A stretch of 64,000 bases of DNA from Desulfuromonadales bacterium. GTDB lineage: Bacteria > Desulfobacterota > Desulfuromonadia > Desulfuromonadales > BM103. Both the position numbers and the translations under genes were made by a program. Positions 21,050 to 23,505 of this stretch are shown piece by piece (position 1 is the first letter of the stretch; each line of letters opens with the position of its first letter). Below the pieces are notes generated by a model that was not told where the DNA came from, searched no databases, and worked only from the letters and a program-made list of their open reading frames with translations. Location of the stretch: NCBI GenBank assembly GCA_014860225.1, contig JACZKE010000022.1, positions 1 through 64,000 of the forward strand. Direction: 5' to 3'.

Positions 21050-22459
21050 TCAAACCTCCAGAGTGCGAACATCAACGAAGTGTCCAACAATTGCGGCGGC
21101 GGCGGCCATGGCAGGACTGACCAGATGAGTACGCCCACCCTGCCCTTGCCTACCTTCAAAGTTGCGGTTTGAGGTCGAGGCGCAACGTTCCTGTGGTGAA
21201 AGACGGTCCTCATTCATGCCCAGGCACATGGAGCAACCGGGCTCCCGCCATTCGAATCCGGCCTGTTTGAAGACCTTGTCAAGACCCTCAGACTCTGCCT
21301 GTTGTTTAACCAGCCCTGAACCGGGGACAACCAGGGCCCGCTTAATATTGGCTGCCAGCTTATGGCCCTTGACGACCGCTGCCGCTGCACGCAGATCTTC
21401 AATGCGGGCATTCGTGCAGGAACCGATGAAAATCGTTTCGGGATAGATCTCCGTGATCGGCGTATTCGCGACGAGCCCCATATAAGTGAGTGCCGCCTGC
21501 ATTCCTTCACGTTTGACATGATCCGGTTCCATTGCAGGGTCCGGGACACAGCCATCGACGGCAACGACCATCTCTGGCGATGTCCCCCAGCTCACTTGGG
21601 GCCGAATTGAAGCAGCATCAAGATGCACAACCCGGTCATAATGAGCATCGGGGTCACTCTGTAGAGTCTGCCAGAAAGTTTTCGCCTTGTCCCAGAGGTC
21701 ACCGCGCGGCGCGTAGGGGCGACCTTTAACATAATCGATGGTCTTGGCGTCAACGGCGATCAGACCGGCACGTGCGCCAGCCTCGATCGACATGTTGCAA
21801 ACCGTCATGCGTCCTTCCACTGACAAGGTGCGAATCGCGTCGCCGCCATATTCGACAACGTAGCCGGTGCCACCGGCAGTACCGATCTTGCCGATAATGG
21901 CCAGCGTGATGTCCTTGGACGTAATACCATGGCCCACCTGGCCGTCCACGCTGACCAGCATGTTGCGGGCTTTCTTCTGGATAATGCACTGAGTGGCCAG
22001 GACATGTTCCACTTCGGAAGTGCCAATACCAAAAGCAAGGCAACCCAGGGCGCCATGGGTCGAGGTGTGAGAATCACCACAGACAATCGTCATGCCGGGG
22101 AGTGTCACCCCCTGCTCGGGACCAATGATATGCACTATTCCCTGACGGATATCATTCATGGCGAATTCGGTGATGCCGTAATCCGTGCAATTGGCATCCA
22201 GCGTTTCAACCTGGATGCGGGACAAAGGATCAGAGATTCCTTCTCTGCGGTCTGTCGTGGGAACGTTATGATCCGGCACGGCGATGTTGGCATCTGACCG
22301 CCAGAGTTGACGGCCGGCAAGGCGCAGGCCTTCAAAGGCCTGGGGCGAGGTCACTTCATGAACCAGATGCCGATCGATATAAAGCAGACAGGTGCCGTCG
22401 TCGTCACAGTGGACCACGTGGCGATCCCAGAGCTTGTCATACAGGGTTTTTGCACTCAT
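21050..22459 (-). CDS. leuC: 3-isopropylmalate dehydratase, large subunit
   Basis: This 469-residue aconitase-family subunit binds the 4Fe-4S cluster. Seen: [30 protein letters not shown] (first cluster Cys) and [19 protein letters not shown] (the other two). The start [12 protein letters not shown] follows AGGGAG by 7 nt; the upstream in-frame extension reads through a palindromic repeat and is not coding. Other leu genes are not in the window. Confidence 0.96.
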
Positions 22460-22476
22460 CAAATTCTCCCTAGCTT

Positions 22477-22530
22477 GTGTCCATCCGGAAACTCCGGATG
22501 GAACGACCGCAGTTTTCCCTTTGCGGACAC
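22477..22530. repeat. Palindromic element, copy C (leuC leader)
   Basis: CCATCCGG-AAACT-CCGGATGG is a perfect 8-bp-arm palindrome located 18 bp before the leuC ribosome site region. It is followed by GCAGTTTTCCCTTTGCGGACAC, related to hairpin 1 of copies A and B. In the leuC transcript it would fold next to the translation start. Confidence 0.65.
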
Positions 22531-22682
22531 GCATCCCGGTCATCAAGGTTGGCGTTTACTAAGCTGTTATTATGAACCATGCCCTTCCGATGTCAAACCG
22601 GAAGCTATAAATCACTTTATTTATTACCTTTTTACCACAAAAAAACAATACCAGAGCAGATATCTACAGGACCATTCCTGAC

Positions 22683-22742: not shown

Positions 22743-23147
22743 TTATTTCGGCTCTAAGGGATAACCCTTGCTTTCCCATTCGTGCCAACCGCCCTTGAGA
22801 GCATAGACCCTGGAGTATCCCATTTTCATCATTGTCAGCGCCACACTGGCACTGGTCGCTTCGTTCACTCAGGTGCAATAAAGAACGATGACCTTATTTT
22901 TGGGATAATTACCGGCCCACTGATTGACAGCCCCGGGGTTGACACGTTCAGAGCCGACAATCTGCTTGTCTGACTGGTCCGAGTCCTGCCGAACATCAAT
23001 GATCACCAGGTCGGGTTCACCGAGACGTGATTTAAGCTCATCGGCAGACATCCGCGGGACTTCGGCTGCGCTCGCGGCAAAACTCATGGCGCATAGAAGC
23101 GCTGCAAATATAAAAAAAACACGGTAAACGAGGCTACTATTGCGCAT
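22743..23147 (-). CDS. Periplasmic rhodanese, probable selenoprotein (in-frame UGA at residue 93)
   Basis: Reading through the TGA at 22871-22869 gives a complete 134-residue rhodanese: signal peptide 1-29 (ending AASAA), then VIIDVRQDSDQSDKQIVGS, KVIVLYCT, Sec93, VNEATSASVALTMMKMGYSR and GGWHEWESKGYP. Cys relatives read YC-x-C-P-N-E-A-T-S-A, so the UGA replaces exactly the second Cys of the loop, giving C-x-U. A SECIS-like hairpin follows 14 nt later. AGGAG lies 8 nt before the ATG at 23147. The stretch after the UGA is fully family-like and ends at its own terminator. A recent nonsense mutation is the main alternative. The likely role is periplasmic sulfur or selenium transfer or thiol redox. 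Confidence 0.75.
22836..22854 (-). promoter_or_regulatory. Bacterial SECIS-like hairpin after the UGA codon
   Basis: In the mRNA, CAGUGCC-AGUGU-GGCGCUG forms a 7-bp stem (one G-U pair) with a 5-nt loop containing GU. The stem starts 14 nt and the loop 21 nt after the UGA, within the spacing usual for SelB-bound elements. Confidence 0.6.
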
Positions 23148-23505
23148 TGTCATAGCTCCTTTCGTAAATTGTAATTCACTTACATGAAACATTAACAGAC
23201 TTCGACGATTCATGACAAGTTCCGTCTTATTTTTTTCGAAGCTATAACCCGTAAAAAGGCCGTGCTTGCCGCTAAGCCACGAAGGGATCAAGAAGTTCGC
23301 TTTATTGAGTAATAGTCATCTGAGCCTACGCTCTGAACGGTCAAGTTGTCTTTATTTCATGGCAAGGCAGTTTGCATGAGCAGCCACCGGATACCGTTCC
23401 TCCTCAACAGAGTCTCCGGTTAATGCTGATCCTGTGGTTGACAATTATGCCGACAGGGTGTACCTCCAACCTTTACCTTTTGTCGACCGCAACAAGGAGT
23501 CTTAT
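23148..23505. other. 358-bp divergent intergenic region
   Basis: It lies between the rhodanese (minus) and YitT-family (plus) genes and should contain both promoters. A fragment reading GCTAAGCCACGAAG (about 23271-23284) resembles another common dispersed-repeat half. No gene was supported. Confidence 0.35.

Follow-up and report, generated by a model that had tools for sequence, protein, structure and literature searches.

A conserved in-frame UGA and a downstream hairpin point to a selenocysteine-containing rhodanese-like protein in a Desulfuromonadales bacterium

Does the in-frame TGA in a rhodanese-like gene from a Desulfuromonadales bacterium end the protein, or does it encode selenocysteine (Sec)? 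The gene lies on the minus strand of the stretch of DNA that we analyzed (64,000 nucleotides, hereafter the window), which comes from a genome of 3.94 Mb in 68 contigs. Read directly, it opens with ATG at 23147, has TGA as codon 93 and 41 sense codons after it, and closes with TAA (22745-22743), so that 23147 to 22743 encodes MRNSS...VIVLYCT-TGA-VNEATSASVALTMMKMGYSRVYALKGGWHEWESKGYPLEPK and then TAA. With the standard code, translation from this ATG gives only 92 residues, which is what we would see if the UGA were a true stop and the gene made a truncated protein, the remainder being untranslated or a decaying pseudogene. (In a mechanical list of open reading frames, this frame begins farther upstream, at a TTG, and has 140 residues.) The initial annotation had proposed that 41 more codons of rhodanese follow the TGA, then UAA and a terminator. 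The TGA, the 41 codons, the UAA, and a stem with a T-run beyond it were all found by direct reading of the minus strand (Table 1), and the Pfam Rhodanese match (55.2 bits, residues 34-126) spans the TGA. Terminator-like sites number three on both strands together, versus a mean of 0.9 in shuffles. That no further stop occurs within the remaining 41 codons argues against a true stop. By length alone, the window contains 166 read-through frames. Of the nine rhodanese matches in the genome, this gene is the only one with a stop codon inside it. Judging from its N-terminal sequence, the product is probably exported.

Table 1. Positions of the gene, its local signals, and its 3' neighbor in the window
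Feature	Position	Strand	Basis
Predicted selenoprotein gene, 134 residues, Sec as codon 93; rhodanese-like, NF041203	22743..23147	-	Translation with TGA=U; profile scores
In-frame UGA, predicted to be read as selenocysteine; residue 93, motif LYCTU	22869..22871	-	Column common to 36/36 family rows
Putative SECIS hairpin, 7 bp, loop AGUGU (22847-22843)	22836..22854	-	Pairing in 36 rows; loop GU; bSECIS model fit
Probable N-terminal signal sequence, about residues 1-28, AxA-type end	23064..23147	-	By eye; low-confidence helix 4-24 in model
AGGAG, ribosome-binding-like, 8 nt upstream of ATG 23147	23156..23160	-	Direct reading
Intrinsic-terminator-like hairpin and T-run, 3' of UAA	22688..22709	-	8 pairs
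3' neighbor, presumably leuC; TTG start assigned mechanically	21050..22546	-	ORF list

The read-through protein scores 155.4 bits against the NF041203 profile (cut-off 115, E = 5.1e-46, positions 3-126 of 126), and the LYC-x-U signature in the family's name is present as LYCTU at residues 89-93. When we searched 277 genomes of the class with this profile, 31 genomes had a match over the cut-off, for a total of 34 such matches, and 33 of these 34 contain exactly one TGA. We added three rows from named public contigs (L057-L059, which were not scored against the cut-off) to these 33. In all 36 of the resulting family rows, the TGA is in the same column, at residue 93, and all 36 have CxU. Exactly 41 codons follow the TGA in 29 of the 34 rows that were measured, and 42-57 codons follow it in the remaining five. 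If the UGA were a true stop, we would not expect the identical TGA in 36 of 36 rows. An alignment of homologues had been suggested as a check, and it shows TGA at the same codon rather than nonsense codons scattered along the gene. The 34th match over the cut-off, L062 (G149:C290:8224-8571), is the sole one in the class with TGC in place of the TGA. It has also lost the hairpin that is described below, and its genome nonetheless has a piece of a SelB-like protein at a contig end.

We sorted 71 rows by what they have at residue 93. From the matches listed in the class search we took its 30 loci, plus 40 stretches hand-picked near the top of the list, of which three were over the cut-off and the others below; six further matches were inspected only. 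We left out L005 and L056, which are duplicates of L048 and L046, and also L082, L085, L086, and L093, in which residue 93 is neither Sec nor Cys. Because of the sorting, it is true by construction that the 71 rows have Sec or Cys there; of 42 aligned stretches, residue 93 is Sec or Cys in 37 and something else in five. It had been claimed that the TGA sits where relatives have the second Cys of a YC-x-C catalytic loop. The claim about the column holds in part: 10 rows do have Cys (TGC or TGT) there, but the relatives mostly have TGA. The motif fares less well, as the Cys rows mostly lack YC-x-C: the one that is over the cut-off has FC-x-C and the nine more distant ones have S-x-C.

The codons after the TGA are under purifying selection. 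For ten relatives, hand-picked from the 35 other family rows, dN after the TGA was 0.09-0.30 and dS was 0.66-1.57 (ratios of 0.09-0.46), and dN was below dS in 10 of 10 comparisons. With the hairpin codons removed, dN was still far below dS in eight pairs, and dS was saturated in two. Such values would be unexpected downstream of a real stop or in a pseudogene. The refuting tests named in the initial annotation came out, as far as they were run, in favor of its reading, and the downstream stretch is selected as protein. Also, in a structural model (see below), the 92-residue form would be missing helix 97-108 and everything after it. We therefore consider a true stop to be very improbable, and as far as the sequence can tell us, recoding rather than truncation is by far the likeliest reading.

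The genome has the machinery that recoding would need: selA, selB, selC, and selD, for which a search had been advised, are all present. SelA (617.7 bits), SelB (394.4 bits), and SelD (362.4 bits) are adjacent on contig C41, and tRNA-Sec (selC, anticodon TCA) is on contig C56. Full-length conservation alone is silent on which residue is inserted, and a UGA might be read through without SelB and Sec, for instance by a near-cognate tRNA or a suppressor. We think this is very unlikely too, given the dedicated Sec machinery, the Cys at this position in the aligned rows that count as non-TGA relatives, and a hairpin that is tied to the TGA and is absent from the Cys rows. The co-occurrence of SelB with the gene adds little: at an E of 1e-80 or below, 27 of the 30 genomes that carry the TGA form have SelB, but so do 235 of the 277 genomes of the class, and this test is therefore weak and does not discriminate. 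In the other three carriers (G010, G014, and G132, which are 59%, 99%, and 87% complete), SelB over the cut-off was not found, even in a laxer search; contig ends may have interrupted the gene there.

As a side observation, selA, selB, and selD lie side by side at G000:C41:5788-10103 (L025, L009, and L100), and selD has one in-frame TGA, which makes it a second TGA-containing gene in the genome. We also considered formate dehydrogenase (TIGR01553) as a second selenoprotein and rejected it: the genome has seven matches, all of them below the cut-off and none with an internal stop.

A hairpin of 7 bp (+18 to +24 with +30 to +36) starts 14 nt past the UGA and has the loop AGUGU at +25 to +29, just as had been claimed for a stem with a GU-containing loop. 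The bSECIS model, as printed in the portion of PMC13188914 available to us, calls for a loop of 3-9 nt, an upper stem of 4-16 bp, a G among the first two loop nucleotides, a UGA-to-loop distance of 16-37 nt, and a minimum free energy at or below -7.5 kcal/mol. The window's hairpin has a loop of 5 nt, a stem of 7 bp, a G in second place, a distance of 21 nt, and an energy of -12.5 kcal/mol, and so it agrees with this printed model on every count.

Because the region is coding, our null for pairing came from 500 rounds of synonymous codon resampling. It should be kept in mind that the window's own sequence was used to define the pairs and that the rows are not independent, being relatives (35 of the 36 family rows are distinct). 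In the 36 family rows, 222 of 252 cells are paired (88.1%), versus 57.1% ± 2.7 when resampled (highest 65.5%). The mean hairpin energy in these rows is -11.2, versus -5.9 when resampled. The 25 sister TGA rows give nearly the same picture (153 of 175 cells paired, or 87.4%, versus 57.9% ± 3.2, highest 71.4%). In contrast, the 10 Cys rows have no excess of pairing (27 of 70 cells, or 38.6%, versus 41.9% ± 4.1 in their own null). The loop has GU at its second and third places in 36 of 36 family rows, in 24 of 25 sister TGA rows, and in none of the 10 Cys rows. Even for the window gene alone, the energy of -12.5 compares with -5.7 ± 2.6 in the resampled sequences, and it was reached by 3 of 500. 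So the hairpin is conserved beyond codon choice.

The evidence from covariation is mixed. For the 35 distinct rows of alignment A1, covariation scored higher than in any of the 500 column shuffles, and the number of pairs with two-sided changes was not exceptional, being reached by 139 of 500 column shuffles. Most of the covariation is carried by the pair +21/+33 (CG in 17 rows, UA in 13, and UG in 5), both of which are third codon positions; of the two outermost pairs, +18/+36 fails to form in 12 of the 35 rows and +19/+35 in 16. Nor would the energy alone have flagged this gene. The window has 33 TGAs in an open context with a hairpin of -9 kcal/mol or lower at the same place, and the window gene ranks 9th of these, so energy by itself is unspecific. 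Rfam reported no SECIS family around the gene. The single Rfam match near the gene, to a snoRNA at a lax threshold, we took to be chance.

The proposal of a selenocysteine-containing rhodanese is supported by the Sec machinery, the shared TGA column, the selection downstream, and the conserved hairpin. We put the probability that the gene makes a full-length, Sec-inserted, probably exported single rhodanese domain at roughly 0.93; that it makes a full-length selenoprotein, whatever its other properties, seems a little more secure still. SelB, bound to the hairpin, would serve the ribosome at UGA 93 with Sec-tRNA (anticodon UCA); Sec would be inserted, and 41 further residues would finish the rhodanese fold. 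The 134-residue reading would then correct the end that the standard code gives after 92 residues.

The window gene is a further member of an already listed, predicted selenoprotein family, and the subfamily itself is not new. The part of PMC13188914 that we could consult lists "Rhodanese-like domain-containing protein form 3" (NF041203, CxU, one Sec) and credits the CxU form to Zhang and Gladyshev 2005. Under the same accession, TKB26178.1, the available part of PMC9312934 has COG0607 form 2, with CxU, among predicted families whose functions are not clear; given the same representative accession and the same motif, we take this to be an earlier name of the form 3 subfamily. A COG2897 rhodanese selenoprotein is listed in PMC1088965, again in the part available to us. 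The window gene is like the NF041203 proteins in being over the cut-off and in having LYC-x-U, one Sec, the rhodanese fold, and a hairpin just after the codon, and we saw no feature that separates it from them; at Val94, Pro is the residue in many aligned relatives. Form 1 (UxxS), forms 2 and 4 (UxxG), and TsoB (UxxxxU), as they appear in the accessible part of PMC13188914, also combine a rhodanese domain with a Sec that lies within the active-site loop or close to it, but forms 1, 2, and 4 have it elsewhere in the loop, and TsoB has two Sec. In the portion of the literature that we searched, we saw no experimental work on the NF041203/CxU family. What our analysis adds is evidence of conservation for a subfamily that the reviews, in the parts available to us, list as predicted.

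What might the protein do? An AlphaFold model (from five sequences) has a mean pLDDT of 84, with averages of 82-97 for the ten-residue blocks across residues 31-130 and low values for the first 30 residues. Fifty matching solved structures were listed, most of them rhodanese domains, with Z of 13.4-16.9 among the matches listed; GlpE (1gmx) aligns over 103 residues with Z = 14.5 and an rmsd of 2.3. The rhodanese domains of GlpE, persulfide dioxygenase (5ve3), and persulfide reductase (3nta) thus share the fold of the window protein, and a shared fold does not by itself show a function. These domains, like classical single-domain rhodaneses generally, have one catalytic Cys and are not known to contain Sec. 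In the model, the active-site loop, C91-T-U93-V-N-E-A-T, follows strand 86-90, with C91 directly after the strand. Sulfane-sulfur or related chalcogen chemistry is, in our view, the most likely function.

It is about an even bet that C91 and U93 work as a pair, in either a transferase or a reductase. The two residues of this predicted single rhodanese domain would together take sulfane sulfur or another oxidized chalcogen substrate, and resolution would be via a Cys91-Sec93 selenenylsulfide, which a periplasmic thiol carrier would re-reduce. Residue 91 is Cys in 60 of the 61 rows with Sec at 93 and is Sec in the other one, and it is Sec in three more relatives with UxU (see below), which favors the idea of a pair. 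On the other hand, residue 91 is Ser in 9 of the 10 rows with Cys at 93, and these nine S-x-C rows do without Cys91, which weakens it. Furthermore, they form one clade in a tree of the 71 rows, so the correlation between residues 91 and 93 rests on few events and is suggestive only. Resolution in this tree is poor: it splits up the 36 family rows (3 changes), and it does not show whether the C-x-C row L062 had a Sec ancestor. The S-x-C rows are joined with the UxU row L078 with support of 98/98.

A somewhat less probable reading is that of an ordinary sulfurtransferase for thiosulfate or persulfide: Sec would simply stand in for the catalytic Cys, residue 93 would carry the sulfur, and Cys91 would be unimportant. 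The ungapped phmmer alignment sets residue 93 on the Cys of 6mxv, and (by eye) the 17 residues from residue 93 to Gly110 are the same spacing as for the catalytic-type Cys of L002, a rhodanese from the same genome. The presence of Sec or Cys at 93 in most aligned stretches, and the retention of residue 93 alone in the S-x-C clade, also fit with this reading. Yet MAFFT pairs the Cys of L002 with Cys91, by opening a two-residue gap; Cys91 comes immediately after the strand in the model; and in four relatives Sec occupies position 91. Classical rhodaneses of the GlpE/PspE type have a six-residue active-site loop that starts at the catalytic Cys. For the window protein, whose loop length we compared only with rhodaneses of its own genome, counting from Cys91 gives a loop with two residues more than that of L002 and the same length as that of L001, and counting from Sec93 gives the length of L002; the MAFFT and phmmer registers disagree.

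More speculatively, and with rather less than even odds, residues 91 and 93 might be a redox pair (Cys-Sec or Sec-Sec), and the protein might work in the periplasm as a selenenylsulfide/diselenide oxidoreductase with a rhodanese scaffold, not as a sulfurtransferase, perhaps acting on polysulfide or selenium oxyanions. The UxU proteins would then be a double-Sec subfamily in which one hairpin serves two UGAs that are six bases apart.

Four rhodanese relatives (L078, L114, L122, and L123) have two in-frame TGAs that are two codons apart, for UxU. In L078 (G189:C24, about 102101-102457, minus strand), both residue 91 and residue 93 are TGA. With L078 as the query, 49 of 395 genomes of the phylum had a match, and three more two-TGA rows were listed; these have TGAs at the same two positions as L078, with a hairpin-like stretch behind them (by eye). 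The four genomes (G189, G392, G355, and G505) belong to four genera and three families. This sequence comparison suggests that Sec can also occur at residue 91. G100 and G260, which were also listed with two TGAs, have only one in the aligned domain, and we do not count them as UxU. UxU is absent from the rhodanese selenoprotein forms in the portion of PMC13188914 that was available, and a text search of the literature on selenoproteins and rhodaneses did not find a UxU rhodanese among the matches listed. With CxU, UxU, SxC, and CxC forms collected, a series is at hand for experiments on the contribution of Sec in the rhodanese fold.

The genomic context gives no hint of a pathway. The 3' neighbor, which from its sequence we take to be leuC, lies within 0.6 kb in 11 of the 12 family f1 carriers (all but G014), and leuC is near the gene in none of the 21 loci outside f1, within the stretches examined; we see no functional reason for the adjacency. 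The 5' neighbor, presumably a YitT-like gene, is found only at the window's own locus among the stretches examined.

Two other observations concern relatives of the gene. L047 (G132:C13:3472-4265) consists of two tandem, adjoining copies of the TGA gene. And L082, L085, and L086 are a related group with Cys at 91 and a TGA three codons past residue 93 (YCSG-x-T-U-RGS); judging from this motif, they are perhaps the UxxS proteins printed as form 1.
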